A DNA stretch of 64,000 nt from Croceicoccus mobilis. GTDB lineage: Bacteria > Pseudomonadota > Alphaproteobacteria > Sphingomonadales > Sphingomonadaceae. Position 1 is the stretch's first letter; each line of letters starts with the position of its first letter. The stretch is from the NCBI RefSeq assembly GCF_001661965.1, contig NZ_LYWZ01000022.1, positions 806,001 to 870,000 on the forward strand. The letters are read 5' to 3'. A program made the translations under genes and the position numbers. The notes under the pieces are model-generated. The model saw only the letters and a list, made by a program, of their open reading frames with translations, was not told the origin of the DNA and searched no databases. Below are positions 13,560 through 54,723 of this stretch, one piece after another.

Positions 13560-13948
13560 AAATCACAACCACAATTCTGTGCCACTGGTGCTGACGGGGA
13601 ACAGGGCAGGATTGAAGTCGAGAAAATGACCGAATGGATCGAACGCAGTGTACAAAAGAGCCCATCGCGCAGCATGGCGACAGAGTATTGTCATGCTTGC
13701 GCTAATTTTCCTCGCCCGCCGATAATCTTTGCAGCCGGGGCGGAATGGCGCGTTTGGTCGGCGGAAACCGCAGCCCTGCGAAATGGCGGCTCGCCTAAAA
13801 CGGCCAATGGCGAAAATTGTATCAAAATCCGAAGTTATTGACGCAATGCGTCAAGGCCTTGTGCGTCCATGCTCAAATTTGATCGGATTCGCCGCCCTCC
13901 TTTTCATATAGTTGCTGCATCCAGCATCGAAAACTTGGGGCGGTTTGC
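13560..13948. other. Intergenic region before the metalloprotease, with a palindrome
   Basis: No supported gene lies here on either strand. The DNA is clearly less GC-rich than the flanks. A 7-bp-arm palindrome TTGACGC-AAT-GCGTCAA sits at 13838-13854, about 95 bp before the metalloprotease start, and could be a regulator site for that gene. Confidence 0.4.
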
Positions 13949-16438
13949 ATGGGACGAATTGGGCGTTGCGGTCATCGGGGTCTTGGCAGGGCATTGCTGT
14001 ATGCAGGCGGCGCGGCGCTGGCGTTTACCGCGCCTGGCCCGGCACCGGCGCTGGCCGCGCCATCCGGCATGATTGCCGGATTGCCGAAAACGGACGGCTA
14101 TGTCCCGTTTTACTGGGATGCGGCGGACGGCAAGGTCCTCCTCGAAATCCCGGCCTTTGACGAGGACGTGCTCTATTACGTTTCGGCCGCGACCAATCCG
14201 GGGTCGGTGCAGGCCGGTTTCGACCGGGGTGTCATCTATACCGCGGTCGTTCATTTCGAACGATCGGGCGACCGGGTGCTGGTGAACCAGATGAACATGG
14301 ATTACCGCGCCACCGGCGGCAGTCAGGCCCTGAAAGACGGGGTGCGCGATTCCTTTCCCAGCTCGGTACTGGCCGTGCTGCCGGTCGTTTCGGATGCAGG
14401 CGGCAAGGTCGTCGTCGACGGCACGCCCTTGTTCATGCGCGACGCGGGCTATGTATCGCGCCGGTTGAAGCGTTCGAAGCAGGGCGATTTCCGTTTCGAC
14501 CCGGCGAAAAGCGCCTTTTACCCGAAACGGATGAAGGCATTCCCGGAAAATACCGAGATCGAAACGGTCGCGACCTTCACTTCCTCTGCCCCCGGCAAGG
14601 CCCTGTCGGAAGTCATGCCCGCGCCCGACATCTTCACCATGCGCGTCCACCATTCCTTCCTGAAGGCGCCCACCGGCTATACCCCGCGTGAGGCCGATGC
14701 GCGCATCGGCGTGGGTTCGATCGAGTTCAAGGATTTCTCCAAGGACTTCGACGATTCCCCTGTCACCAACTGGATCCGCCGCTGGCGGCTGGAAAAGAAG
14801 AACCCCGGCGCCGCGATGAGCGAGCCGGTGGAGCCGATCGTCTATTATTTCGACCCCGCCATTCCCGATCCGATCCGCCACGCGATGAAGGAAGGGCTGC
14901 TGTGGTGGAACAAGTCTTTCGAAAAGGCCGGTTTCATCAATGCGATCGAGGCGCGCGACGCGCCCGCCGACATGGACCCGATGGATATCCGCTATGCCTA
15001 TGTGCTGTGGATTCAGCGCGACCAGCGCGGCTTTTCTTCCAGCGGGGCCTTCATCGATCCGCGCACCGGAGAGGTGCTGGGCTCGAAGACCCACATGGAC
15101 ACCTATCGCATCCGCACCATCGCCAATTATTTCGATGCCTATAGCGGCGGCCTGCCTGCCGATGGCAGCGGGCTGACCGTCGCCGATCCCAGCCTGTTGC
15201 TGGACGCAGACGGGTTCGCCGCCATGCCCAAGGGGCAGCGCGACATGGTGCTGCTGCGCCAGGCGGTGCTGACCGCGCATGAGCTGGGGCATACACTGGG
15301 CTTCGGGCACAACTGGAACGCGAATATGAACGATCGTTCCAGCGTGATGGAATATCCGGTCCCGCGCGTGACGGTAAAGGACGGCAAGCTCGATCTTTCG
15401 CAAAGCTTCATGACCTCGGTCGGGGCCTATGACGACTACATGGTCGAATATGCCTACACTCCCTTTGCGGCGGGGCAGGAGGAAGCGGGGCTCGACGCGA
15501 TCATCGCCGACATGCGGGCCAGGGGCGTGTTGTACACGCCCAGCAGCGACCCGCGCTATGCATGGTATGTCGACGGGCTGGACCCGGTCGCGGAGCTTGA
15601 GAACATGGGCGCGGTGCGCGACATCGCGCTGTCCAGCTTTGGTCCCGCCATGCTCAAGTCCGGGGAGCCATATGGCAATCTGCGCGATATGCGCTTGTGG
15701 ATGATCTACCTGCATGAGCAATACGCGATCGAATACGGTCTGCGTTACATCGGCGGGCAGTTCCAGAACATCGTGGTCAAGGACAAGGAGAATGGCCTGA
15801 CCCCGACCGAGTTCGTTCCCGCCGCGACCCAGCGCGAGATCCTTGGCCAGCTGATGGATATCATCGCCCCCTCCCATCTTGCCATGCCCGAGGATTTGCT
15901 GGCGCAGCTGGTGACAGACCCCGATGACAACCATGAAGACATGTCGGACGATGCGGTTTTCGACCAGCTGAAGGCCGCGCGTATTCTGGCAGCGCAGGTG
16001 CTGGAACCACTGTTCGACGGGGACCGCGCCTCTCGCATGATGGCGCTGGCGGCGCGAAAGCCCGACACGCTGACCTTCCCCCAGATGGTCGACACCGTCA
16101 TCGCGCATAGCTGGGACGTGAAACCGTCGGGCTCGGCGCAGGATCAGGCGCTGCTGCGCGTGACGCAGAATGTCGCCATGCTCGCCATGATGAAGCTGGG
16201 CGCGGACGAGGATACATCGCCCGCCGCGCGCTATTTCGTGCTCGACCGGCTGGACCAGCTGGCAAAGCAACTTTCGGGCCGCAAGGCGCCCGATGCTCTG
16301 ACCGCTGCGTTTTATCGGGAATCGGCGCGGCAGATCGACCGTTACCTCCAGTCACCCGAAGCGCCAGAGAAGATCATGCCCGTATGGGGCCAGGAGCCGC
16401 GTTCGCGCTATCCCGGACCGCCCGGACCGCCGCTCTGA
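13949..16438 (+). CDS. Secreted zinc-dependent metalloprotease (DUF5117/DUF4953 type)
   Basis: 829 aa. An Ala-rich signal region (about 1-36) is followed by an N-terminal domain of the DUF5117 kind (about 60-280, YVPFYWDAADGKVLLEIP... and ..DVLYYVSAATNPGS) and a metzincin-like catalytic domain. The zinc motif HELGHTLGFGHNW lies near residue 444: HExxH plus a third His, followed by NANMNDRSSVMEYP, where the SVMEYP Met-turn is typical. A C-terminal helical domain completes it. Such proteins are exported peptidases of unclear substrate, common in sphingomonads and Bacteroidetes. It stands alone; a GC hairpin at 16454-16481 separates it from the convergent amidohydrolase gene. Confidence 0.88.
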   Translation: MGRIGRCGHRGLGRALLYAGGAALAFTAPGPAPALAAPSGMIAGLPKTDGYVPFYWDAADGKVLLEIPAFDEDVLYYVSAATNPGSVQAGFDRGVIYTAVVHFERSGDRVLVNQMNMDYRATGGSQALKDGVRDSFPSSVLAVLPVVSDAGGKVVVDGTPLFMRDAGYVSRRLKRSKQGDFRFDPAKSAFYPKRMKAFPENTEIETVATFTSSAPGKALSEVMPAPDIFTMRVHHSFLKAPTGYTPREADARIGVGSIEFKDFSKDFDDSPVTNWIRRWRLEKKNPGAAMSEPVEPIVYYFDPAIPDPIRHAMKEGLLWWNKSFEKAGFINAIEARDAPADMDPMDIRYAYVLWIQRDQRGFSSSGAFIDPRTGEVLGSKTHMDTYRIRTIANYFDAYSGGLPADGSGLTVADPSLLLDADGFAAMPKGQRDMVLLRQAVLTAHELGHTLGFGHNWNANMNDRSSVMEYPVPRVTVKDGKLDLSQSFMTSVGAYDDYMVEYAYTPFAAGQEEAGLDAIIADMRARGVLYTPSSDPRYAWYVDGLDPVAELENMGAVRDIALSSFGPAMLKSGEPYGNLRDMRLWMIYLHEQYAIEYGLRYIGGQFQNIVVKDKENGLTPTEFVPAATQREILGQLMDIIAPSHLAMPEDLLAQLVTDPDDNHEDMSDDAVFDQLKAARILAAQVLEPLFDGDRASRMMALAARKPDTLTFPQMVDTVIAHSWDVKPSGSAQDQALLRVTQNVAMLAMMKLGADEDTSPAARYFVLDRLDQLAKQLSGRKAPDALTAAFYRESARQIDRYLQSPEAPEKIMPVWGQEPRSRYPGPPGPPL

Positions 16439-42139: not shown

Positions 42140-42280
42140 CGCTTGCCAAGCTGTGGAAAACAAGAGATTAAACGTAAAGAGATTACAAAAGATACCGGTT
42201 GCATGTCATTTTTATGACGATAATCTTCATCTCGGGACTGCCCTCCATTTCGGAGGGTGAATGAGTGGAGTTCTCGGGTC

Positions 42281-43465
42281 ATGACAATAAAGGGATATAT
42301 GCTGGCAGGCGTTACCGGCGTGCTGGCAATGGGGGGCGTCATCGCCTCGGGCGCGGCCGCGGCACCGGCTGACAAGGCGGCGGCCCCTGCAGCGGGCGCG
42401 AAGATCGAAAACCAGTTCATCTGCACTTTCTCGGCCAATTGGGCCAAGGGCAAGAACGTGCGCGCCGAGGCCAATCGCGCCGCGACCCCGCAGGGCGGCC
42501 GCGTATTGTTCGACTACTCCCACTCGATCAAGGGATTTGCCGTGCGCATGTCGCCGCAGGGCGTGGCGAAGATGCAGGTCGCCAATCCGCATATCGACAC
42601 CTGCTTTGCCGACCGCGTCGTCGCGCTTGCCCCGCCTGCGGGCAAGGGCCCCGGTGGCGGCGGTAGCGAGCCTGCGGCGCAGACCACCCCGTGGGGCATC
42701 GCCTATGTCGGTACCTCCAGCGGCGCGGGCAAGACCGCGTGGGTCATCGACAGCGGCATCGACCTCGATCACCCCGATCTCAACGTCGACACCGCGCGCA
42801 GCGCCGATTTCACCGGCAGCCGTAAGGGTGCGGACGATGAAAACGGCCATGGCACCCATGTCGCGGGCACCATCGGCGCTATCGACAATTCCGAAGGCGT
42901 GATCGGCGTTGCTGCCGGCGCAAAGGTCGTCGCGGTGCGCGTGCTTGACCGCCGGGGTTCGGGCGCATGGTCGGGCGTGATGGCAGGCGTCGACTATGTC
43001 GCGGCTAATGGCTCGCCCGGCGATGTCGCGAACATGAGCCTTGGCGGCGGCGCGAACGATACGCTGGATCAGGCGGTGCTGAACGCATCGGCCAATTCGG
43101 GCGTGATCTTCGTGCTGGCAGCAGGCAATGACGGCGAAGACGCGGCGAACCATTCGCCCGCACGCGCCGCAGGTGCATCGGCCAATGACAAGGTCTTTGC
43201 CATCGCATCGGCCTATGACACGGGCAATGGCACGCTGGCGATGAACAGCTGGTCGAACTGGGGCAAGCCCGAGGTGACCTTCGCCGAACCCGGCTACCAG
43301 ATCGAATCGACCTGGCTCGATGGCGGCTACAACACCATTTCGGGCACTTCGATGGCATCGCCGCATGCCGCCGGCCTGATGCTGCTGTACGGCACGAACC
43401 TCAATACCCAGGGGTCGGTCACTGGTCCCGACGGCGCCAGCTACGCGGTCGGCGTCGAGGGTTGA
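42281..43465 (+). CDS. Secreted subtilase (S8 peptidase) with propeptide
   Basis: 394 aa from the ATG at 42281 (GTGGAG lies about 10 bp before). A signal peptide ([19 protein letters not shown]..., about 1-28) is followed by an inhibitor-I9-like propeptide (about 40-125, [17 protein letters not shown]...[19 protein letters not shown]). The subtilisin catalytic triad is visible: Asp in [14 protein letters not shown] (near 158), His in [13 protein letters not shown] (near 191) and Ser in [15 protein letters not shown] (near 358). The oxyanion Asn lies in [11 protein letters not shown]. Compact: it ends soon after the Ser block. An exported broad-range serine protease, not linked to the next operon by overlap. 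Confidence 0.92.
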
Positions 43466-43517: not shown

Positions 43518-44096
43518 GTGGGGAGCGCGCCATTTCCATTTATGGCGCCGATGCTGCGTGTGCGAGAAAGAAAATTTCCCGGCCAAGGTGGCCACGGCGG
43601 CCCCCATTTGATAGGTGCCGCGCCAGAGAGAGGGAGCAACGGGGGAAGCCCGATCAAGGTCGCAAGGGACAAGATATATGCGCGCGCCACCCGGCTGGGG
43701 CTGGTGCCGCTTGCCGCATCCTGCCTGATGGCAATGCCTGCCATGGCGCAGGATCCATCCGCCCCTGCCTTCACCGAAGACAATGTGCCGGTCATCGATG
43801 CCGGGCACGTCGGTTTTGGCTGGACGGCTGACGGCCCGGTCACCATTAGATTGACCCGCGACAATGGCGAAACCCGCGCCGTGTTCGGCGGACAGGGTGA
43901 AAAGCTGTTCCTCTCGGGCCTCGCCGATGGCGACTACATGCTGTCCATCGCGCCCGAGGGCGGGGCGGTCAGCGATACGCTGGCGCTGGAAGTGCGGCAC
44001 CAGTCGCTGGCCCGCGCCTTGTGGCTGACGCTGGTAGGGGCGGTGGTGTTCGCGCTGGTGCTTGCCGTGATCGTGCGGGGCGCGCGCCATGACTGA
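43518..44096 (+). CDS. Anchored secreted protein at the head of the symporter operon
   Basis: Up to 192 aa; the start is uncertain. The first 45 residues look unlike a protein N-terminus, while KVARDKIYARATRLGLVPLAASCLM...AMAQ reads as a signal peptide, so translation may begin later from a non-ATG codon near 43600-43670. The mature part (about 70-150) is a beta-rich, Ig/fibronectin-like stretch (HVGFGWTADGPVTIRLTRDNGETRAVF...GLADGDYMLSIAPEGG), and one transmembrane helix follows near the C-terminus (ALWLTLVGAVVFALVLAVIV) with a short basic tail. It overlaps the symporter gene by 8 bp, so it is part of that operon. It could be an extracytoplasmic partner of the transporter. No named family recognised. 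Confidence 0.6.
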   Translation: MGSAPFPFMAPMLRVRERKFPGQGGHGGPHLIGAAPERGSNGGSPIKVARDKIYARATRLGLVPLAASCLMAMPAMAQDPSAPAFTEDNVPVIDAGHVGFGWTADGPVTIRLTRDNGETRAVFGGQGEKLFLSGLADGDYMLSIAPEGGAVSDTLALEVRHQSLARALWLTLVGAVVFALVLAVIVRGARHD

Positions 44097-45513
44097 GCGG
44101 ACGATTTTCCTCGACCCCACTTTGGGCTGGATCCTGCTGGCGGCCTTTTCGGTCCTGTGGGTCGGGCTCGGCTTCTATTGGGGCCGCCGCAACAAGAGCT
44201 TTGAAGATCACGCTCTGGCGGGCCGCAACATCGGCCTCGCGCTGGGGTCCGCCACGGCGGCGGCGACATGGATCACGTCGAACACCACCATGCTCGCCCC
44301 GCAATTCGCGCTGGAGCTGGGAGTGTGGGGCATGCTCGCCTATTCCACCGCCTCATTGGGCCTGTTCCTGTTCGCGCCGCTTGCCGTGCGTATCCGCAAG
44401 CTGATGCCGCATGGCTATACCAGCGGCGATTTCTTCCGCTTGCGCTATGGGCGCGTGGCGTGGGCGATCTTCCTCGTCTTCACCCTGTTCTATTCGCTGA
44501 CATGGCTGGTCAGCATGGCGATGGCGGGCGGCATCCTGTTGGAGGCTCTGGCGGGCATTGATTACGTCTGGGGGATGAGCGTCATCCTTGGCGTATGCGT
44601 GCTTTATACCATGCGCGGCGGTCTGGGCGCGGTGATCGGGACCGATTTCATCCAGACCCTGATCATATTGATCGGCATCGTCATCGTCGGTTTCGCAGTG
44701 CTCAGTCAGGTCTCGGTCGGCGAAATCCATGCCGAGCTGACCGCGCATAAGCCCGCGCTACTCGACGTCTTGTTCCCTGCCGCGATCATGGCGATCTTCA
44801 ACAATCTGCTCTTCGGTCTGGGCGAGGTGTTTCACAACAATGTCTGGTGGAGCCGCGCCTTTGCTTTCCGCGATGGGGTGGGCGGCAAGGCGTTCCTGAT
44901 CGGCGGCTTCATCTGGCTGCCGATCCCGGTAGCTGCCGGTTTCATTGCGCTGGCATCGGGCGCGCTGGGCGTTGCCATCCCATCCAGCGACATGGTCGCC
45001 CCGCTGGTGATCGCACAGGTCCTGGGAACGGCGGGCGCTGTGGGCATTTTCATCATCGTGTTCTGTTCATTGGCCTCCAGCATCGACAGCCTGCTGGCTG
45101 CGACCGCCGATCTGGTGACGGAGGATATCTGGCGCCGCCTCATCCGCCCCGGCTCCTCGGCAGAGCATCTGAAGGGCGCGGCGCAATGGGTGACATTGGG
45201 GCTGGGGCTTTTGACCTGGGCGCTGTGCGCGCCGCGCATCGGGACACTGGCGACGGTTTTGTTCTTTGCAGGGCCGCTGGTCGGTGCGATGATCTTTCCG
45301 ATCATAACGGGGCTGTATTGGCGGCGGGCCAATACGATCGCTGCCGTGGGCGGCATGGTGCTGGGGGCAGGGGCAGGCCTCGTCACCTATTTCACGATCG
45401 GCTGGTTCGTCGCGACCACGGTTGCCACCGCCGTTTCCTGCGCATGGGTGCTGGGCGCCTGCGCAATGTCCAAATCGCGGTTCGAATGGATCCGCCTGAA
45501 GGAGGACGCATGA
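44089..45513 (+). CDS. Sodium:solute symporter (SSS family)
   Basis: 474 aa with about twelve or thirteen hydrophobic helices. The family pattern is clear: LGFYWGRRNKSFEDHALAGRNIGLALGSATAAATWITSNTTMLAP (TM1 region with the sodium-site Ala/Ser/Thr), GYTSGDFFRLRYGRVAWAIFLVF, YTMRGGLGAVIGTDFIQTLIILIGI and FCSLASSIDSLLAATADLVTEDI (TM8-9 with the Ser/Asp sodium site). SSS members import urea, sugars, carboxylates or amino acids with Na+. The substrate is not evident; the closest feel is the urea/carboxylate branch. It overlaps both neighbours (44089-44096 and 45510-45513). Confidence 0.88.
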   Translation: MTERTIFLDPTLGWILLAAFSVLWVGLGFYWGRRNKSFEDHALAGRNIGLALGSATAAATWITSNTTMLAPQFALELGVWGMLAYSTASLGLFLFAPLAVRIRKLMPHGYTSGDFFRLRYGRVAWAIFLVFTLFYSLTWLVSMAMAGGILLEALAGIDYVWGMSVILGVCVLYTMRGGLGAVIGTDFIQTLIILIGIVIVGFAVLSQVSVGEIHAELTAHKPALLDVLFPAAIMAIFNNLLFGLGEVFHNNVWWSRAFAFRDGVGGKAFLIGGFIWLPIPVAAGFIALASGALGVAIPSSDMVAPLVIAQVLGTAGAVGIFIIVFCSLASSIDSLLAATADLVTEDIWRRLIRPGSSAEHLKGAAQWVTLGLGLLTWALCAPRIGTLATVLFFAGPLVGAMIFPIITGLYWRRANTIAAVGGMVLGAGAGLVTYFTIGWFVATTVATAVSCAWVLGACAMSKSRFEWIRLKEDA

Positions 45514-45632
45514 GTTTTTCAGCCGGTTTTCTGGAGGCGATCGTCTGGGCGTCGCTGGTCTGGTGCGCGGTCTCCGCGACCGGCCTTGGCGTGATGCTTG
45601 TGCGCGATGCGAAAAAGGGGTCGATCTGGTGA
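45510..45632 (+). CDS. 40-residue membrane protein, probable symporter accessory subunit
   Basis: A 40-codon gene begins at ATG 45510, overlapping the symporter stop (ATGA), and ends TGA 45630-45632, overlapping the GTG start of the carbamoyltransferase gene. The product, MSFSAGFLEAIVWASLVWC and then an AVSATGLGVMLVRDAKKG end, has one transmembrane helix (about 7-31) and a short basic tail. Small one-helix proteins encoded next to SSS or DUF4212-type symporters are known accessory subunits. Overlap at both ends makes it a genuine, translationally coupled gene. Function inferred. Confidence 0.65.
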   Translation: MSFSAGFLEAIVWASLVWCAVSATGLGVMLVRDAKKGSIW

Positions 45633-46726
45633 ACGATATCCAGTCCGCCAGCCAGCTCGACCATAAGGCCGATCCCCAGCGCAAGGCCGGGGTGCTGGGC
45701 AATTGCCCCAATCCGCAGGACCTGATCGACATGTCGCCGGGGCTCGATCTCGCCGTGCTGGACCGGCTGCATAATTGCTCGATCCTGTCCTCGCGCCAGT
45801 TCGACAAGGAGCTGATGGGAGAGCTGGCAAAGCTTGCCGCCTATCTCCAGCTGAAGAAGGTGCCCGCGGGGCAGGCGCTGCATGACAAGATCATGGCCGC
45901 CGCCTTTTTCGAACCTTCGACCCGCACGCGCCTGTCGTTCGAAAGCGCGATGCTGCATGTGGGCGGCAAGACCCTGTCGGTAGCGGACGCAAAAACCACC
46001 GGCGTCGCCAAGGGCGAATCCATGCGCGACATTGGGCAGATGTTCAATTCATACGCCGATATCGTGGTCGTGCGGCACACGCAGCAGCAGGCGCTGCAAG
46101 AGCTGACCGATTATCTGCGCATCCCGCTGATCAATGGCGGCAACGGGTCGGACGAACATCCGACGCAGGCTCTGGCGGATTGGTATGCGCTGATGAAATG
46201 GCGGCCGGAACTGGCATTTGGGCAATTGCCCGAACAGTTTCGCCTCAACATCGGCATCATCGGCACGCCGGGCAATATGCGAACGGTGAAGAGCTTCCTC
46301 ACGCTCGCCCTGCTGTTTCATGAGAATATCAACCACATCACCATATTTTCGGAAATGGCCGATCCGCTGGGCGATGAATTGCGCGCGCTGACCAATGCCA
46401 GCCCGATCACCATCGATTTCAGCCGCAATCTCAAGCAGAGCCTTGAGTATCTCGACGTCATCTACATGAATGCGATCGCGTTTCTGGGCGATGGCTATCG
46501 CTTCTTCGGGGACGAGTTCTCGCTGAACTCGGCCAGCCAGATGAAGCCCGACACGGTGATCCTCCACCCGCTGGCACGGGGGGAGGAATTGGGCACCTGT
46601 CTCGATGACACCGATCACAATCTCTATTTCAACCAGGCCGATGGTGCGGTCTGGCTGCGGCAGGCGCTGCTGCTCGCCATTTTCGGGCGCGTGCGCGAAG
46701 TCGTCCCCCGCGAATTCATCAGGTAA
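45629..46726 (+). CDS. pyrB: Atypical aspartate/ornithine carbamoyltransferase-family enzyme
   Basis: 365 aa from the GTG at 45629, longer than normal ATCase catalytic chains (about 310). The carbamoyl-phosphate site is intact: FFEPSTRTRLSFE (93-105), a KGES loop (128-131) and HPTQ (177-180). The region that in ATCase binds aspartate, TRVQKER with Arg229 and Gln231 in E. coli, is replaced by YMNAIAFLGDGY (279-290), and the HPLPRVDE loop reads HPLARGEE (313-320). So the amino substrate may not be aspartate. It is inside a tight operon between the symporter and asparagine synthetase genes, not near other pyrimidine genes. The symbol pyrB reflects family only. Confidence 0.75.
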   Translation: MNDIQSASQLDHKADPQRKAGVLGNCPNPQDLIDMSPGLDLAVLDRLHNCSILSSRQFDKELMGELAKLAAYLQLKKVPAGQALHDKIMAAAFFEPSTRTRLSFESAMLHVGGKTLSVADAKTTGVAKGESMRDIGQMFNSYADIVVVRHTQQQALQELTDYLRIPLINGGNGSDEHPTQALADWYALMKWRPELAFGQLPEQFRLNIGIIGTPGNMRTVKSFLTLALLFHENINHITIFSEMADPLGDELRALTNASPITIDFSRNLKQSLEYLDVIYMNAIAFLGDGYRFFGDEFSLNSASQMKPDTVILHPLARGEELGTCLDDTDHNLYFNQADGAVWLRQALLLAIFGRVREVVPREFIR

Positions 46727-46739
46727 AGGAACGCCATTC

Positions 46740-48677
46740 ATGTGCGGAATCGCCGGGCTGTGGGCCCATAGCCACCACCCTGAGACCATGGCCCGCGCGG
46801 AAAAGATGGCCGATGCCATCTATCACCGCGGTCCCGACGGGCGCGGCTTCCATGTCGATCCCGACAATTCGCTGGCGATGATCCACACGCGCCTGTCGAT
46901 CATCGGCCTGAACGCGGGTGACCAGCCTATCTTTGGCCGCGACAGCGACGGCACCGGCGGCATGGTGCTGACCGCGAATGGCGAATTCTATGACTACAAG
47001 CGCATCCGCGGCCTGCTCAGGACCGATGGCTACGACTTCAACACGAAGTCGGACAGCGAGCTTGCCATCAAGCTTTATCACAAGCACGGCTTGGACTTCG
47101 TGCATCAGCTGCGCGGCGAATTCGCCTTTGCGATTTTCGATGAGGCGAAGCAGCAGCTGATCCTCGTCCGCGACCGTTTCGGCATCCGTCCGCTGTTCTT
47201 CCATAACGGCCCCGCCGGCGTGTTCTGGTCGTCCGAGATCAAGGCCATGCTCGCCCACCCCGAAGTCCCGCGCGAGCTGGACCCGAAGGCGCAGCTGCAC
47301 CAGATGATGCAGGTGATGGTCCCGGGCATGACGCTATGGAAGGGGATCGAGGCGGTGAAGCCCGGTCACATGCTGATCGTTTCAAAGGACGGCGACGGAT
47401 TTGCAGTGGAAGAGCGCCGCTATTGGGACGCCGATTTCCCGCTGGATGGCGAGCATGACGAATTGCCCGATGACGAGCATATCGAGAATGTGCGCCGTGC
47501 CCTCGTCGAATCCATCGCGCTGCGGCTGGAAGCCGACGTGCCGGTCGCCTGTTACCTTTCGGGCGGGATCGACAGCTGCTCGATCCTTGGCATGGCGGCC
47601 GCGATCCAGCAGTCGCCGGTCAAGGCGTTCACCATCGGGTTCGACGATGCGCGTTATGACGAAACCTCGATCGCGACCGAAATGGCCGAAATGGTGGGCG
47701 CGGATCAGGATATTCTGAGAGTTTCCGCGCTCGACCTTTATGGCAAGAATTTTGAGGATGCGGTCTATTATTCGGAACGCACCTTCTACAACACGCTCGG
47801 CGTCGCCAAGATGCTGATGTCAAAGCACGTGACCGACGCCGGATACAAGGTCGTCATCACGGGCGAGGGCAGCGACGAATTGTTCGGCGGCTATGCCCAG
47901 TTCAAGGCGGACTATTTCCTCCACGATCCCGCTTATGCCGAAACCGCCGCAGGCGCGGATATGAAGGAGCGGAACAAGATCTTTTCGGGCAGCGTGCTGG
48001 CCGAACAGACGATCAGCCATCCCGCGTTTGAGGAAGTGATGGGCTTCACCCCCAGCTGGATCCAGCCGTGGATGCTGGTCTATGAACGCGTGAAGCCGCT
48101 GCTGTCGGATGAATTCCTTGCAAAGCTCGACGGGTATGATCCGGTCGCGGCTATCGCCTACAGCCTTGATCGCACGATGCTGGATGGGCGGCACGTGCTC
48201 GACAAGGTGCAGTATAGCTGGATCAAGACCATGCTGGAGGGGCAGATCCTCAACTGGGGCGGTGACCGGGTCGACATGGCTAACAGCCTTGAATCGCGGC
48301 CCGCTTTCCTCGACCACCATGTCGCGGAACTGGCCATGCGCATTCCTCCCAGCGTCCGCATCCGCGACGGCGTCGAGAAATGGGTCGTGCGCGAAGCGAT
48401 GAAGCACGTGCTGCCCGAAGTGCTCTACAAGCGTGAGAAATTCGCCTTCATGGCCCCGCCCGCCCACACCAGCGAGGAAAAGGGCCGCGAAATCGACAAG
48501 CTGCTCGAAAAATGGCTGTCATCCGAGAAAATCGCCGAGCATGGCATCTTCGACGAAGAGAAGCTGCGCGCCAGCATTGCCGAATACAAGCAATCGGACG
48601 ATCATACCGCCAATACGAGGAAGGACATCATCCTCAACCACGCGATCGCGCTGCACGCGATCGAGGAACTGATCTGA
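46740..48677 (+). CDS. asnB: AsnB-type glutamine-dependent asparagine synthetase
   Basis: 645 aa from ATG 46740, needed so that the nucleophile becomes Cys2 after Met removal (MCGIAGLW). The glutaminase domain (about 2-195) shows RLSIIGLNAGDQPI, NGE at 80-82 and RDRFGIRPLFF. The synthetase domain has the ATP pyrophosphatase loop CYLSGGIDSCS (PP-motif 274-279), FTIGFDDARYDE, and GEGSDELFGGY (375-385); the C-terminal PEVLYKREKFAFMAPP is usual. It makes an amide from a carboxylate, glutamine and ATP. It lies 13 bp after the carbamoyltransferase gene and 14 bp before the next. In this context the acceptor could be another acid than aspartate. Confidence 0.9.
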   Translation: MCGIAGLWAHSHHPETMARAEKMADAIYHRGPDGRGFHVDPDNSLAMIHTRLSIIGLNAGDQPIFGRDSDGTGGMVLTANGEFYDYKRIRGLLRTDGYDFNTKSDSELAIKLYHKHGLDFVHQLRGEFAFAIFDEAKQQLILVRDRFGIRPLFFHNGPAGVFWSSEIKAMLAHPEVPRELDPKAQLHQMMQVMVPGMTLWKGIEAVKPGHMLIVSKDGDGFAVEERRYWDADFPLDGEHDELPDDEHIENVRRALVESIALRLEADVPVACYLSGGIDSCSILGMAAAIQQSPVKAFTIGFDDARYDETSIATEMAEMVGADQDILRVSALDLYGKNFEDAVYYSERTFYNTLGVAKMLMSKHVTDAGYKVVITGEGSDELFGGYAQFKADYFLHDPAYAETAAGADMKERNKIFSGSVLAEQTISHPAFEEVMGFTPSWIQPWMLVYERVKPLLSDEFLAKLDGYDPVAAIAYSLDRTMLDGRHVLDKVQYSWIKTMLEGQILNWGGDRVDMANSLESRPAFLDHHVAELAMRIPPSVRIRDGVEKWVVREAMKHVLPEVLYKREKFAFMAPPAHTSEEKGREIDKLLEKWLSSEKIAEHGIFDEEKLRASIAEYKQSDDHTANTRKDIILNHAIALHAIEELI

Positions 48678-48691
48678 GCGGGAGACACGCG

Positions 48692-49054
48692 ATGCGGCTG
48701 GCAGGAACTTTGATGGGCGCGCTGGCCTGCATGGCGCTCGCCCTGCCTGCCGCTGCGCAGGACAAGCCTGCCGATCCGCAGGAGGCCGATGCGGTCTGCC
48801 TCGCCTTTACCGCGCTGCTTGCGGGGCAGAGCGATGAGAAACTGCAGGCGGCTGGCACGATGGGCACGCTCTATTACATCGGCAAGCTGAAGGCGCGCGA
48901 TCCGGACATTGACCTGACTGCCACCATGCGTGGATCGGTCGAGGCGCTGAAGACGGGCAACCGCGAAATGATCGCCAAGCGCTGCGGCATGGAATTCCAG
49001 CAGGTTGGTGACGAATTGCGCCAGGCGGGCGCGGCGCTGAAATCCGAAGACTGA
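48692..49054 (+). CDS. Small secreted protein of the operon
   Basis: 120 aa from ATG 48692 behind GCGGGAGA. A signal peptide (MRLAGTLMGALACMALALP..AAQ, cleavage near 23) precedes a helical domain with two cysteines: DAVCLAFTALLAGQSDEKLQAAGTMGTLYYIGKLKARDPDIDLTATMR and AKRCGMEFQQVGDELRQAGAAL. No family was recognised; similar small helical periplasmic proteins occur in sphingomonads. It sits 14 bp after asnB and 13 bp before the Nramp-like gene, so it is within the operon. Confidence 0.7.
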   Translation: MRLAGTLMGALACMALALPAAAQDKPADPQEADAVCLAFTALLAGQSDEKLQAAGTMGTLYYIGKLKARDPDIDLTATMRGSVEALKTGNREMIAKRCGMEFQQVGDELRQAGAALKSED

Positions 49055-49067
49055 GCCGCAGCATTAC

Positions 49068-50309
49068 ATGAGCAATACTGACAGCAAGCCGGGTGGCACC
49101 TGGCGCCATATCGGTCCGGGCATCGTCGTTGCCGCCACCGGGGTTGGCGCGGGCGATCTGGTCGCGACTTTGATCGCGGGATCGCGTTTCGGCTTTGCGC
49201 TTTTGTGGGCCGCGATTATCGGCTGCATCGTCAAGATCGCGCTGTCCGAAGGATCGGCGCGCTATCACCTTGCCACCGGATCGACGATCCTGACCGGCTG
49301 GCAGTCGCTGGGGCGCTGGACCGGCTGGTATTTCGGCATTTACGTCGTGATCTGGGGCTTCATCTATGGCGCCACCGCGATGAGCGCGACCGCGCTGCCG
49401 CTGGCCGCGCTCTTTCCGGTGCTGCCGCTGACGGGATGGGCGATCCTGGTCGGGCTCGCCGGCTTCGCCTTCGTGTTCTTTAATCGCTACGAACGGCTGG
49501 AAAGCGTGGTGAAGGTGCTGGTCGGCATCATGTTCGTGGTGATTGTCGGCCTTGCCATCATCGTGGCGCCTTCGCTGCCGCAAGTGCTGAAGGGGCTGGC
49601 GCTGGTGCTGCCGGAAGGATCGCTGTTCTACACGCTGGGCCTGATCGGCGGGGTGGGCGGCACGGTCACGACGGCGGCCTATGGCTATTGGGTGCAGGCC
49701 AAGGGCTGGGAAGGCACCGGCTGGCTGCGCGTCATGCGGATCGACAATGCGCTCGCCTATGTGCTGACGGGCGTGTTCGTCGTCGCCATGCTGATCGTCG
49801 GGGCGGAACTGCTCTATAGCGCGGGGATCGCATTGCAGGGCAGCGCCAGCGGGCTTCTCGACTTGTCGAGCGTGCTGGAGGAGCGGCTGGGCCAGCCCGT
49901 CGCCATCGCCTTTCTCATCGGCTTTGCCGCCACCGCCTTTTCATCCGTTCTGGGCGTGTGGCACGGGATGAGCCTGTTCTTCACCGACTGGTACGGCCAG
50001 TTCTTCGACCGCCCCGCCGTCGATGGCCCGGTGGAAAGCACGCTGCCTTTTCGCGCCTATGCCGCGTGGCTGACCTTTCCGCCGATGGCTTTGCTGTTCT
50101 TTGAACGGCCCTTCCTGCTGGCGGTGCTCTATGGCGCTTTCGGGGCTTTGTTCATGCCCTTTCTCGCCATCACTTTGCTGATGCTGCTGAACCGGCGCGA
50201 TCTTCCGCCAGAGGCGCGCAATGGCTGGCTGGCGAATGCGGTGCTGGCCGGATCGGCGCTGCTGTTCGTGGTGCTGGCAGGGCAGCAGATGGTGGAAATC
50301 TTCGCCTGA
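49068..50309 (+). CDS. Divergent Nramp-family transporter without the canonical metal motif
   Basis: 413 aa, about eleven hydrophobic helices. The start GTWRHIGPGIVVAATGVGAGDLVATLI is the Nramp TM1 region, but the metal-binding DPGN is replaced by TGVGAGD (24-30). In TM6 the A-x-x-M-P-H motif is replaced by TTAAYGYWVQ (201-210). Canonical Nramps carry Mn/Fe through just these residues, so this protein either moves another ion (Mg-type relatives exist) or an organic solute; the LeuT fold allows both. Last gene of the operon; a hairpin follows at 50316-50351. Confidence 0.82.
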   Translation: MSNTDSKPGGTWRHIGPGIVVAATGVGAGDLVATLIAGSRFGFALLWAAIIGCIVKIALSEGSARYHLATGSTILTGWQSLGRWTGWYFGIYVVIWGFIYGATAMSATALPLAALFPVLPLTGWAILVGLAGFAFVFFNRYERLESVVKVLVGIMFVVIVGLAIIVAPSLPQVLKGLALVLPEGSLFYTLGLIGGVGGTVTTAAYGYWVQAKGWEGTGWLRVMRIDNALAYVLTGVFVVAMLIVGAELLYSAGIALQGSASGLLDLSSVLEERLGQPVAIAFLIGFAATAFSSVLGVWHGMSLFFTDWYGQFFDRPAVDGPVESTLPFRAYAAWLTFPPMALLFFERPFLLAVLYGAFGALFMPFLAITLLMLLNRRDLPPEARNGWLANAVLAGSALLFVVLAGQQMVEIFA

Positions 50310-50395: not shown

Positions 50396-51961
50396 TCAGA
50401 AACCGAACGCAACGCCCACGCGGCCACCGGTCGACTTCTTTGCGGTCGATCCGGCGATGCCGCCCGAAACATAGATCCGCGGCGCGACGCGTGCCGCCAG
50501 CGAACCGGCAAAGCCCTGCTCGCCGCGATAGGTCGAGCCGTTGAGCGTGACCGAAACGGTGCTGTCGGGCACGATCATCGTGCCGCCCAGCGCCATCGCC
50601 GCAGCAATGCCGCCACGCGTGCTTTCGTCGATATTGTCGAGCTTGTAGGACAGCGTATCGACATCGGACTGGAGCGCGGCGAACTGCGCATCCGATACGG
50701 CAGCCACCGCCTGCATTTCGGTCGCAAGCCCTGCCACCTGCTGCGAAGTGGCGAGCGCGCTGCCCTTGCCCAGCGTGCCGCTGTCATCGACGGTCACGGA
50801 ATAGAGCTGGCCTTCCTGCGCCGCGGTCGAGGCATCGATGTCGCCGATCTGCACCGAAGAGCCTTCGCCCCCCAATGCGACCTGATCGGATGCGGTGGTC
50901 GTCGCTTCATAGCCGATGGCGGTCGAGCGGGCATAGGCGGCGTTCGCATAGGCGCCGATCGCACTGGAAGCCTCGCCCCCGGTCGTTGCGGCAACGCCGA
51001 TCGCGGTGGAGCGCCCGCCGCCGGCGACGGCGCTTGCGCCGATCGCCGTGGCATAGGCCCTGGTCGCCTTGCTGCGGATGCCGATGGCGGTGGAATTGGA
51101 AGCGGTCGCCTTGGCAAGGCCGCCAATGGCCGCCGATTCGGTGCCGGTCGCGCCTGCCAGCAGGCCGATCGCGGTGCTGCGCGCGCCCGAAGTAGTGGCG
51201 TCGTTGCCGATGGCGGTGGTGCTGATGCCGCTGGCGCTGGCACCCGATCCGATGGCCATCGCGTCGTCTGACGCGGTCGCGACCGATGCGCCGGTGCCCA
51301 TGGCCATCGACTGGTCGCTGGCTGCACTGGCATTGGTGCCGACTGCGATGGAATTCGTGCCGCTGGCATCCGCGCCAACGCGGCTGCCGTCGTTTATGTC
51401 GGCATCGGTGCCGAATGCGATCGCGTTCTGGCCGCTGGCGGTTGCATAGGCACCGATCGCGCTTGCCCCTTCGCCCGATGCGGTTGCGACCTTGCCGATG
51501 GCGGTGCCGAACGATGCGCTGACGCGCGAGTCCGCGCCGACGGCGGTGCCGAAATCGGCATAGTCATAGGTGATCGTCTCGCCATCGTTCGAAACGAACG
51601 AACCGACGCGCGCGTCATTACCGACGGCGATGGTGTCATAGCCAACGGCCACGGCCTGTGCGCCAAGCGCGGTCGCACCGTCAACGTAATCCGCGCTTAT
51701 GCTGCCCGAATCGACATTGGCGACAGATCCATATCCCAGCGCTGTGGCATATCCGTTCTCGGCTGCAGCATCGGTGCCGCATGCCGTGTCGGTCGCATCG
51801 CCGCTGGTCGCGCCCTGCGTGCTGGTCGTCGAGGTGCCGGCATCTTGCATGACGCATTCTTCTGCGAGTGCAGCATTGGACGTGCCGGCAAAGGCGATCA
51901 CCGCCATCGCGCAACCCGAAAGCACGGACGCCCGGCGGGCGAAAACGAAGTTTTTCTGCAT
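50396..51961 (-). CDS. Compact trimeric autotransporter adhesin (YadA family)
   Basis: 521 aa. A signal peptide with the extended form seen in large autotransporters (about 1-33) is followed by a head of YadA-like repeats (about 70-385), each about 14-15 residues of the type AIGSGASASGISTTAIGNDAT and ATAIGASAVAGGGRSTAIGV. A very short neck/stalk (about 385-465, with heptad-like AVSDAQFAALQSDVDTLSYKLDNIDES) leads to the C-terminal membrane anchor (GGIAAAMALGGTMIVPDSTVS...GGRVGVAFGF, four barrel strands). It trimerises in the outer membrane and probably mediates attachment. Almost no stalk makes it unusually compact. Single-gene unit. Confidence 0.93.
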   Translation of the reverse strand: MQKNFVFARRASVLSGCAMAVIAFAGTSNAALAEECVMQDAGTSTTSTQGATSGDATDTACGTDAAAENGYATALGYGSVANVDSGSISADYVDGATALGAQAVAVGYDTIAVGNDARVGSFVSNDGETITYDYADFGTAVGADSRVSASFGTAIGKVATASGEGASAIGAYATASGQNAIAFGTDADINDGSRVGADASGTNSIAVGTNASAASDQSMAMGTGASVATASDDAMAIGSGASASGISTTAIGNDATTSGARSTAIGLLAGATGTESAAIGGLAKATASNSTAIGIRSKATRAYATAIGASAVAGGGRSTAIGVAATTGGEASSAIGAYANAAYARSTAIGYEATTTASDQVALGGEGSSVQIGDIDASTAAQEGQLYSVTVDDSGTLGKGSALATSQQVAGLATEMQAVAAVSDAQFAALQSDVDTLSYKLDNIDESTRGGIAAAMALGGTMIVPDSTVSVTLNGSTYRGEQGFAGSLAARVAPRIYVSGGIAGSTAKKSTGGRVGVAFGF

Positions 51962-52133: not shown

Positions 52134-53438
52134 TTAACAGGCGTCGCTTGGCAAGGTCTGTGGCGCGATTTGCTGCGCCCCGCACGCCAGCTCGAGCGCA
52201 CAATTGCACAAAAGTTGCGCGCCGCGTTCGATATCGGACCAGTGGGTCCATTCATCGGGCGCGTGGCTGATGCCCTTGACGCTGGGCACGAAGATCAGGC
52301 CGGTGCGCGTCAGCCCTGTAAAGAACTGCACGTCATGGCCCGCGCCCGAAGGCATGATCTTGTAGCTGTAGCCCAGTGATTTCGTGTTGCGCTCCACCAT
52401 CGCGATGATCTCGTCGTTGCAATAGGCAGGGGCGAGCCAGCTCATCTGTTCGTAATCGAATTTCAGGCCATGGCGGCGCGAGATCGATTCCAGCACCTTG
52501 CGGCACGCATCGGCGAGCTTTTTCATGACGTCTTCGTCAAGGTCGCGCCCGACGATGGTGAAATCGGCTTCGCCCGGGACGGTGTGCGGAAAACCGGGTT
52601 TCAGCGCGACATGGCCGATGGTGATGCGGCTCTTGTCGGTGCCTTCTTCATCGATGATGCGCGGGATTTCATGCGCGAAATCGACCATGCCCATCAATGC
52701 GTCGCTGCGCAGGTGCATCGGGGCAGTGCCGGCATGATCGGCCTTGCCCTTCAGCTTCACCATCCATTTGAAGACGCCGGAAATACCCTCGACGATGCCG
52801 ATGGTCGTTTTCTCGACATCGAGCACCGGCCCCTGTTCGACATGCAGCTCCAGGAAGGCGTGCAGCGATTCCGGGCGGCGATAGGCGTGGAGCGCCTGCA
52901 AATAGTCGAGGCCAGCGGTTGCCATTGCGTCTTTCAGCGCCAGCCCATGTTCGTCGGCGGCGTTTTCCAGCCATTCGCGGGTCAAATGTCCGGTCATCGC
53001 CTGCGCGCCCAGCATGCCGCCAAAACGGCCTTCCTCCTCGCTCGTGGCGATGACCTCGATGGGATATGACGGCTCGATCCCGGCATCCTTCATGGTGCGG
53101 ATCACTTCCAGCCCTGCGACCACGCCCAGAACGCCATCGAAAATGCCGCCCGCGGGCACGCTGTCGAGGTGGGAGGCGATCACCACCGCCGGTATCTCGC
53201 CATCATCGTGCGCCGGGCCAAAGCGCCCGATGACATTGCCCGCGCCATCCATGCGGTGCGGCACGCCAAGCGCCTCGAACTGATCGCGCAGCCATTGGCG
53301 CGCGGCCATGTCGTTTTCGCTGAAGCCTTGGCGATAGACGCCGCGGTCATCCTCGTTAAAGCCAAAGCGGGCGATGGCGTTGATGTCGTGCTCGATCCTC
53401 TGGATCGAAATTTTGGGCATGTTGGTCGGGTTGGTCAT
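52134..53438 (-). CDS. M20 hydrolase of the AllC / N-carbamoyl-amino-acid hydrolase group
   Basis: 434 aa. The group hydrolyses ureido or carbamoyl groups (allantoate, N-carbamoyl-L-amino acids, ureidoglycolate). Metal motifs are those of this clade: IASHLDSVPAGGIFDGVLGVVAGLEVIRTM, EEEGRFGGMLGAQAMTG, LHAFLELHVEQGPVLD and KGKADHAGTAPMHLRSDAL, then MPSGAGHDVQFFTGL. It is cytoplasmic (no signal). Its start overlaps the stop of the other amidohydrolase by 3 bp, so the two form a translationally coupled pair. Specific substrate cannot be read from sequence. Confidence 0.88.
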   Translation of the reverse strand: MTNPTNMPKISIQRIEHDINAIARFGFNEDDRGVYRQGFSENDMAARQWLRDQFEALGVPHRMDGAGNVIGRFGPAHDDGEIPAVVIASHLDSVPAGGIFDGVLGVVAGLEVIRTMKDAGIEPSYPIEVIATSEEEGRFGGMLGAQAMTGHLTREWLENAADEHGLALKDAMATAGLDYLQALHAYRRPESLHAFLELHVEQGPVLDVEKTTIGIVEGISGVFKWMVKLKGKADHAGTAPMHLRSDALMGMVDFAHEIPRIIDEEGTDKSRITIGHVALKPGFPHTVPGEADFTIVGRDLDEDVMKKLADACRKVLESISRRHGLKFDYEQMSWLAPAYCNDEIIAMVERNTKSLGYSYKIMPSGAGHDVQFFTGLTRTGLIFVPSVKGISHAPDEWTHWSDIERGAQLLCNCALELACGAQQIAPQTLPSDAC

Positions 53439-54664
53439 TCGGGCAGGCCTTCGTTCAGCACTTCCAGCCCCAGCGCGGCCAGCAGGGCGGCGCCGCGCGG
53501 CAGGGTGCTTTCATCCATATGCATGCGCGGGGAATGCAGGCCGCAGCACTGCGACCAGTCGTCCCCTTCGCGCGCGACTCCAAGGAACAGCATCGCGCCC
53601 GGTGCATGGTTCAGCGCATAGCTGAAATCCTCCGCCGTCATCAGCGGGCGGGCGAGCGCGTGCCAGTGCTCGGCCCCGAATTCGCGGGCGACCACGGTCT
53701 CGGCCAGCTTAAAGGCGCGCGGGTCATTGGCGGTGACGGGGAAATTGCGCGTGACCTTCGCCTCGGCGCTCATGCCATGGGCGGCGGCGATATTCGTGGC
53801 GAGCCGCGCTATGCTGGCGGCGACCTTGGCGCGGGTCTCTTCGGTCAGGGTGCGCACGGTGCCGCGCATGGTGCAGGTATCGGCGATGACATTATCGGCA
53901 TGGCCCGCCTCTATCATCGTGACCGATACAACGACGCTGTCGCCTGCGTCGAACTGGCGCGTGACCATGGTCTGGATCGCGGTCACGATTTCACACGCGA
54001 CGGGCAGCGGATCGGCCGCGCCATGCGGCATGGAGGCATGGCCGCCAGCCCCCTTCACCACGATATTGAGGCCATCGGAGGCCGCCATCAGCGGGCCCGG
54101 ACGGCAGGCGATCTCACCATGTTTCGCATTCGGCATGACGTGGAGTGCGAAGCACGCGTCAGGCGGGCCGTTTTCATCGGTGAGGAGCCCATCCTCGATC
54201 ATCATGCGGCCGCCGCCAAAGCCTTCCTCGCCCGGCTGGAACATCAGCCAGATTTCGCCGTCGAAACTGTCGCAGCGATCGGCCAGCACGCGGGCCGCGC
54301 CCACCAGCATGGCGGTGTGCCCGTCGTGGCCGCAGGCATGCATGCGGCCCTGTCTTTCAGATGCGAAGGGGAGGCCGGTCTCCTCGGCCAGGGGCAGCGC
54401 GTCCATGTCGCCGCGAAGCACGACGCGCCGGCCGGGGCCGCGGCCTTTCAATACGGCGACTGCGCCGGTGGTCTGCGGGCCAGTGCGCCATTCAAGTGGC
54501 AGGTCGGCAAGGGCGGCGCGCACTTTCTCCAGCGTGCGCGGCGTCTGTAGCCCCAGTTCCGGATCGGCATGGATCGCGCGGCGCAGCGCGATGATGTCGG
54601 GCGCGATCGCCTCGGCGGCGTCGGCGATGGTGCCGGGAAGCGGGGGCGAGGGGTGAAGGTTCAT
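53435..54664 (-). CDS. M20D-type amidohydrolase
   Basis: 409 aa from the ATG at 54664; upstream in-frame codons add no family sequence. No signal peptide. Motifs: RRAIHADPELGLQTPRTLEKV, RGDMDALPLAEETGLPFAS, MHACGHDGHTAMLVGAARVL (Cys/His metal ligands), FQPGEEGFGGGRMMIEDGLL and the dimerisation segment VVKGAGGHASMPHGAADPL. A later MTAEDFSYALNHAPGAMLFLG supplies the last metal ligand region. It cleaves an N-acyl amino acid or similar. It is the first gene of a two-gene operon with the carbamoyl-hydrolase-type gene. Confidence 0.88.
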   Translation of the reverse strand: MNLHPSPPLPGTIADAAEAIAPDIIALRRAIHADPELGLQTPRTLEKVRAALADLPLEWRTGPQTTGAVAVLKGRGPGRRVVLRGDMDALPLAEETGLPFASERQGRMHACGHDGHTAMLVGAARVLADRCDSFDGEIWLMFQPGEEGFGGGRMMIEDGLLTDENGPPDACFALHVMPNAKHGEIACRPGPLMAASDGLNIVVKGAGGHASMPHGAADPLPVACEIVTAIQTMVTRQFDAGDSVVVSVTMIEAGHADNVIADTCTMRGTVRTLTEETRAKVAASIARLATNIAAAHGMSAEAKVTRNFPVTANDPRAFKLAETVVAREFGAEHWHALARPLMTAEDFSYALNHAPGAMLFLGVAREGDDWSQCCGLHSPRMHMDESTLPRGAALLAALGLEVLNEGLPE

Positions 54665-54723
54665 GAGAACAGGGCTAACACGGCCCCCATCCCTCGCCAA
54701 GCACCCCCAGCATCATCAGGCCC

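Follow-up and report, generated by a model that had tools for sequence, protein, structure and literature searches.

What small molecule, if any, is handled by a gene set that places a sodium:solute symporter, a carbamoyltransferase and an AsnB-type amidotransferase side by side in Croceicoccus mobilis? The genes lie in a 64,000-nucleotide stretch of this genome (contig NZ_LYWZ01000022.1, positions 806,001 to 870,000 of the forward strand; hereafter the window), where an earlier note, made from the sequence alone, had proposed a seven-gene operon. By combining family models, gene neighbourhoods, residue counts, structure models and published reports on compatible solutes, we redefine the unit and put forward a product for it: we consider it likely that N-carbamoyl-glutamine amide (CGA), a salt-protecting osmolyte, is synthesized, taken up and degraded by the products of the cassette.

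A conserved unit around the carbamoyltransferase

The seven open reading frames (ORFs) of the proposed operon all lie on the plus strand where the earlier note had placed them, spaced by -8, -4, -4, +13, +14 and +13 bp, and their families are recovered by Pfam, with SSF in gene 2, OTCace_N and OTCace in gene 4, Asn_synthase and GATase in gene 5, and Nramp in gene 7 (the SSS and Nramp families share the LeuT fold). Neither Pfam nor NCBIfam gives a match for genes 1, 3 and 6 at an E value of 0.01. As a single operon, the seven genes do not form a natural unit: across 92 loci outside the window that we compared for neighbouring genes, the Nramp gene occurs in one and the helical gene 6 in none.

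What is conserved is an FN3-like protein, the SSS symporter, a 40-residue membrane protein, the carbamoyltransferase (CT), AsnB and an M20 N-carbamoyl hydrolase, the last of which is encoded beyond the region that the earlier note covered (Table 1); in many relatives, genes for an isochorismatase-type amidase and a MarR regulator join this set. A scan of named records with the C-terminal part of CT gave 273 relatives, of which we kept the best 80 (L031-L110, the 80 named loci). Among these, AsnB is present in 80, SSS in 78, the first gene (g1) in 71, M20 in 58, the isochorismatase-type amidase in 27, MarR in 11 and Nramp in one, and in both loci that lack an SSS match (L063 and L071) the CT itself begins at the left end of the contig. 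The neighbourhood conservation that the earlier note had asked for is thus found for SSS-CT-AsnB, which share one strand in 78 of the 80 named relatives, an order that exceeds chance, and fails for genes 6 and 7, which do not recur. Ten long loci from the order of the window (L017-L026) agree with this, with the FN3-like protein, SSS, CT, AsnB and M20 in ten of ten and Nramp in none.

A wider set of 126 loci counts the window in and holds 124 distinct CT sequences, some genomes being present twice. CT and AsnB both appear in 123 of these loci, and in 122 AsnB lies downstream on the same strand, no more than 600 bp away; the odd locus has a split AsnB match. Of the three loci without AsnB, two (L158 and L202) are truncated at a contig end, and the third (L205, 18 kb) holds a lone CT. 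The M20 gene, besides the named loci, is present in 10/10 order, 19/19 gammaproteobacterial and 14/16 Ectothiorhodospira-family loci.

CT is found in 12 of 246 genomes drawn from the order, the own genome included (E value up to 1e-30), in two of 289 from the class and two of 398 from the phylum (both up to 1e-60; each time the own genome and G019), and in 25 of 369 Gammaproteobacteria (up to 1e-70), where two matches may be paralogues (G1049, E value 7e-78; G1159, 1e-72) and one (G1198) is a contig fragment. The named relatives, with phyla taken from record titles and several represented by metagenome-assembled genomes (MAGs) only, span Pseudomonadota, Cyanobacteria, Planctomycetes, Spirochaetes, Verrucomicrobia, Bacteroidetes, Calditrichaeota, Zixibacteria and Bdellovibrionales. 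Many hosts are marine organisms or bear marine names, such as Croceicoccus, Nitrosomonas marina, Rhodopirellula and Luteolibacter marinus, and some are not; habitat was judged from organism names.

A carbamoyltransferase with an altered acceptor pocket

When aligned with Escherichia coli PyrB, the aspartate transcarbamoylase (ATCase), the CTs keep the carbamoyl-phosphate residues Ser52, Thr53, Arg54, Thr55, Lys84, Arg105, His134 and Gln137 wherever the sequence covers the position, and Arg167 in 126 of 126. The position of Arg229 is occupied by alanine (66), serine (59) or methionine (1) and never by arginine, and both Gln231 and Pro268 are replaced by alanine throughout. We take Arg167 on the one hand and Arg229 and Gln231 on the other to hold the two carboxylates of aspartate in ATCase; judged from the alignment, the contact to the alpha-carboxyl seems kept and that to the side-chain carboxylate lost. 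Because Arg229 and Gln231 are lost in all 126 sequences, aspartate is an unlikely acceptor, and the residue pattern fits an alpha-amino acid other than aspartate.

Family models and phylogeny also set this enzyme apart. CT scores below the ATCase equivalog cut-offs (TIGR00670, 166.1 against 236.95; PRK00856.1, 166.4 against 263), and its AlphaFold2 model (predicted local distance difference test score, pLDDT, of 88.9) has ATCases as best Foldseek matches (best E value 1.8e-25). In a tree of 40 rows, from which L154 and L156 were left out and in which the joins of long branches are unsure, the 34 CTs form one clade with 100/100 support, and alphaproteobacteria fall into two separate subclades, a pattern that fits horizontal transfer. 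CTs of other lineages are 42-65% identical to that of the window; a scan of viral contigs with a single CT protein found no close relatives. The own genome encodes a separate OTC, over its equivalog cut-off, and a separate PyrB, identified from the top-scoring family of its N-terminal part and from the aspartate residues that it retains, so the distinction from the housekeeping enzymes on which the earlier proposal depended is borne out. A distant carbamoyltransferase (36% identity) was also seen as the second match in G1133 (L159, from 8236), with no other cassette genes beside it.

The amidotransferase and the hydrolases

The cassette AsnB, at 401.6 bits, exceeds the TIGR01536 cut-off of 267.1. 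In a comparison within the own genome it scores 284 bits, and the next AsnB-family match 65 bits. Of 92 AsnB ORFs, 87 are longer than 600 residues; the motifs SGG[IV]DS and GEGxDE occur in all 87 and MCGI in 83, counts that cover the Cys2 and PP-loop motifs of the family. AsnB-family models for lasso peptides and for the XrtA/PEP-CTERM system match below their cut-offs.

In planctomycetes, verrucomicrobia and gammaproteobacteria, the isochorismatase-type amidase adjoins the M20 gene, and 23 of 23 members of its cluster carry motifs that we read as the Asp-Lys-Cys triad of this family. The second M20 amidohydrolase of the window is found beside the cassette in only one other locus of the 92 (L031), and it is possible that it stands in for the amidase in the clade of the window.

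A candidate product and pathway

CGA was isolated in 1991 from the purple bacterium Ectothiorhodospira marismortui, and the passages on the compound in the works that report it (Roberts 2005; Imhoff 2020; Raman review) name no genes. Its N-carbamoyl group and its carboxyl-derived amide correspond to the two changes that the cassette would make. Our literature searches found no published description of the gene cluster, so the earlier statement that no system of this content had been described holds for the genes, within the literature searched, and not for the likely product. The broader idea of a system for a small amino-acid-like metabolite also stands in part: uptake and synthesis, by carbamoylation and amidation, are probable, whereas Nramp and gene 6 fall outside the unit and the M20 hydrolase had been missed.

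In the proposed pathway, CT would carbamoylate glutamine at its alpha-amino group, with carbamoyl phosphate as donor, and the AsnB-type enzyme, using ATP and a second glutamine, would amidate the alpha-carboxyl group, so that the osmolyte is neutral. Reuptake of CGA would fall to the SSS symporter together with its FN3-like and 40-residue partners. When salinity drops, the isochorismatase-type amidase (in the clade of the window, perhaps the neighbouring M20 amidohydrolase) would remove the 1-amide and the M20 carbamoylase would remove the carbamoyl group, returning glutamine. In many relatives, the cassette is probably controlled by the MarR regulator.

This reading led to a prediction that the cassette occurs in the group from which CGA was obtained, and the prediction held. 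Within the Ectothiorhodospira family, 41 of 47 genomes have CT, against 25 of 369 in the class (E values up to 1e-70). Reaction-centre genes were found in two of the 24 further gammaproteobacterial genomes with matches, and the family is that of one of these, G1208; it is anchored by G1262, which matches Ectothiorhodospira sp. BSL-9. In another member, G1261, the HiPIP is identical over 70 of 70 residues to PDB 1hpi, which we take to be that of Ectothiorhodospira vacuolata, although our searches found no paper naming this source; BSL-9 is the firmer anchor. G1208 carries reaction-centre genes and has a GC content of 68.0% (five stretches, 30 kb in all), close to the 68.2% tabulated for E. marismortui DSM 4180, and fits this species, an assignment based on fit and family rather than on a record that carries the species name. 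At locus L143 of this genome the order is MarR-M20-amidase-CT-AsnB, with no SSS, and the genome has three carbamoyltransferases, OTC, PyrB and CT. Thus, the source species of CGA appears to carry the cassette. CT, AsnB, M20 and the amidase, with SSS unmatched, are kept in nine Ectothiorhodospira-type loci (L143 and L194-L201). In the genome matching BSL-9, CT lies in two reading frames (L201, 9154-10187), and this copy may be broken or misread.

Glutathione amide, which published passages regard as likely in most members of the family, was considered as the product and rejected: the same passages report that no glutathione reductase was found in Ectothiorhodospira mobilis and E. marismortui, the cassette is nevertheless present in the genomes that we assign to them (G1259 and G1208), and such a product would leave CT without a function.

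Gene neighbourhoods also give an indirect link to osmotic adaptation. In four of 125 loci besides the window, the cassette has as neighbours GSMT and SDMT, which serve to make betaine from glycine. They directly follow AsnB in L067 (4-bp overlap) and L154 (roughly 200 bp); in L090 and L094 they are found upstream of g1, at a distance of 2 to 2.5 kb. GSMT exceeds its NCBIfam cut-off in L067 and L094, and SDMT is the best family but under its cut-off in L067, L090 and L094; for GSMT in L090 and for the two L154 genes, the identification comes from BLAST only.

The transporter and its putative partners

The true start of g1 probably lies downstream of the GTG at 43518. For the residues from 43650 on, AlphaFold2 gives a helix, six strands and a helix at a mean pLDDT of 88.7, which models as a signal helix, a six-stranded FN3-like sandwich and a C-terminal membrane helix. 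The best Foldseek match is an fn3 domain, a weak one (E value 1.9e-3) with none under 0.001, and Pfam fn3 is matched weakly by five of 36 members of the g1 family; we regard g1 as a putative transporter accessory. The 40-residue protein matches no NCBIfam family over cut-off, and an ORF like it, of 39-60 residues and with the same last residue (Trp), is found in all 79 loci that have both neighbours (window and L031-L110).

L067 also encodes a second SSS-like transporter of roughly 480 residues (13816-15279), directly after its betaine methyltransferases.

Table 1 Features of the conserved cassette and its neighbours in the window.
Feature	Coordinates	Strand	Evidence
g1, FN3-like anchored secreted protein, directly before SSS	43518..44096	+	AlphaFold2, Foldseek, homologues in 71/80 named loci
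SSS-family sodium:solute symporter, predicted osmolyte uptake	44089..45513	+	Pfam SSF 87.2 bits; 78/80 named loci
40-residue single-pass membrane protein ending in Trp, between SSS and CT	45510..45632	+	Like ORF in 79/79 loci
CT, carbamoyltransferase, clade separate from ATCase and OTC	45629..46726	+	Pfam OTCace_N and OTCace, residue counts, tree 100/100
AsnB-type glutamine-dependent amidotransferase, predicted alpha-carboxyl amidation	46740..48677	+	TIGR01536 401.6 bits
g6, secreted helical protein, passenger	48692..49054	+	0 matches in 92 loci
Nramp-family transporter, passenger	49068..50309	+	Elsewhere beside cassette only in L031 (Croceicoccus MAG), 92 loci
M20 hydantoinase/carbamoylase-family amidohydrolase, predicted N-carbamoyl removal	52134..53438	-	TIGR01879 347 against cut-off 204
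Second M20 amidohydrolase, upstream of carbamoylase, 4-bp overlap	53435..54700	-	TIGR01891 325.8 bits

Two further genes lie beside or among these features. Just upstream of the cassette lies a subtilase-family (S8) peptidase (42257-43465, plus strand) with a 32% match in L020 as well, and between Nramp and the M20 gene (50396-51961, minus strand) lies a protein read as trimeric-autotransporter-like, which has a 63% match near the cassette of L031.

Weighing the alternatives

Several observations weigh against CGA as a widespread product of this cassette. On the side of the genes, the phylum draw (2/398) is lower than expected, compared with 25/369 in Gammaproteobacteria; the lone CT of L205 (8923-9927, genome G1298) is 66% identical to the cassette type and stands on an 18-kb stretch without any further cassette gene; neither MarR nor the isochorismatase-type amidase is matched in the window; M20 is absent from eight of 49 long named loci, which keep SSS-CT-AsnB; and hosts such as Sphingobacterium and Anseongella do not have saline-sounding names. 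On the side of the chemistry, the CT acceptor could be an amino acid other than glutamine. In the published accounts, as far as the available passages go, CGA was described in 2013 as a minor solute of one organism (Raman review), whereas the cassette is widespread; Raman work on E. marismortui gives betaine and no CGA signal; the solutes listed for Rhodopirellula baltica are glutamate, sucrose, trehalose and MGG, with the word carbamoyl absent, although the cassette is present at L078, whose record names R. baltica; and the genome paper of Thioalkalivibrio sp. K90mix names betaine and sucrose and no CGA.

The alternative closest to CGA is an osmolyte of the same kind built on another amino acid, that is, an N-carbamoyl amide of, for example, asparagine or beta-glutamine, which we regard as unlikely. 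The pocket change speaks against aspartate without naming glutamine, and the limited identity between the CT of the window and those of other lineages would leave room for a different acceptor; but CGA is the sole carbamoylated amino-acid amide osmolyte named in the solute passages, and the species that yielded it appears to carry these genes.

A catabolic system is, in our view, quite improbable. Here, SSS would import a ureido compound, M20 and the amidase would hydrolyse it, CT would run in reverse to give carbamoyl phosphate and AsnB would assimilate the nitrogen. The M20 carbamoylase and the isochorismatase-type amidase do belong to families of catabolic hydrolases, and SSS members are usually importers. 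However, the most constant partner of CT is AsnB, from an ATP-using synthetic family; the nine Ectothiorhodospira-type loci hold the enzymes and no SSS match, the eight named loci without M20 hold SSS, CT and AsnB, and the betaine-synthesis neighbours in 4/125 loci also weigh against catabolism.

That CT and AsnB instead make a nitrogen store, which the earlier note had also entertained, or a secreted signal or secondary metabolite, appears very improbable. CGA would hold four nitrogens, as worked out from its name, and the lasso-peptide and XrtA/PEP-CTERM models do match AsnB, if below their cut-offs; against both stand the many hosts that are marine by name, the betaine genes and the parallel with a known osmolyte operon discussed below. 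That CT and AsnB are redundant housekeeping enzymes, an extra pyrB and asnB brought together in one operon by chance, can be dismissed: ATCases are the best sequence and fold relatives of CT and AsnB exceeds the asparagine synthase cut-off, but the own genome and G1208 each have another OTC and PyrB, the next AsnB scores low, Arg229 and Gln231 are lost and the CT clade is separate at 100/100.

We return to CGA. It is likely that the cassette supplies the genes so far missing for a known osmolyte and that it represents a widespread, undescribed system. On balance, and with somewhat less assurance, we favour the fuller view that these are the missing CGA genes and that many marine and salt-lake bacteria, from about nine phyla, use CGA or a close N-carbamoyl amide as a nitrogen-rich osmolyte that has been overlooked, spread horizontally and exchanged in seawater through a new type of SSS unit with FN3-like and 40-residue partners. 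If so, genes would be in hand for a compatible solute known since 1991, a molecule believed to be restricted to a single organism could prove to have producers across many bacterial phyla, carbamoyltransferases would gain a class with a new acceptor, and attention would be drawn to a nitrogen-rich compound in marine dissolved organic matter.

Comparison with known systems

CT shares with PyrB its fold, the carbamoyl-phosphate residues and Arg167, at 26-32% identity among the 50 Foldseek matches listed, and differs in the replacement of Arg229, Gln231 and Pro268 in 126/126 sequences and in its scores under the PyrB equivalog cut-offs. Likewise, the cassette amidase shares family membership with biuret hydrolase (BiuH) and RutB, and the M20 enzyme with hydantoinases/carbamoylases, but the two cassette amidases that we scanned score far below the cut-offs of both BiuH and RutB.

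The closest parallel in overall plan is the operon for N-acetylglutaminylglutamine amide (NAGGN), an osmolyte whose genes (PA3458-PA3461, asnO-ngg) comprise, in the passages describing them, a MarR repressor, an AsnB-like amidotransferase, an N-capping enzyme and a peptidase. The plan proposed for the cassette has the same elements: a MarR-type repressor, AsnB-type amidation of the glutamine carboxyl group, N-capping, a hydrolase and osmoprotection. No Ngg-like gene was noticed by eye among the recurrent neighbour clusters, although no search aimed at one was made; capping in the cassette would be carried out by a carbamoyltransferase rather than by the acetylating Ngg ligase. The cassette AsnB scores 292.2 against the cut-off of 570.1 for the NAGGN amidotransferase (TIGR03104), and the cassette adds the SSS symporter, the FN3-like protein and the 40-residue protein to this plan.

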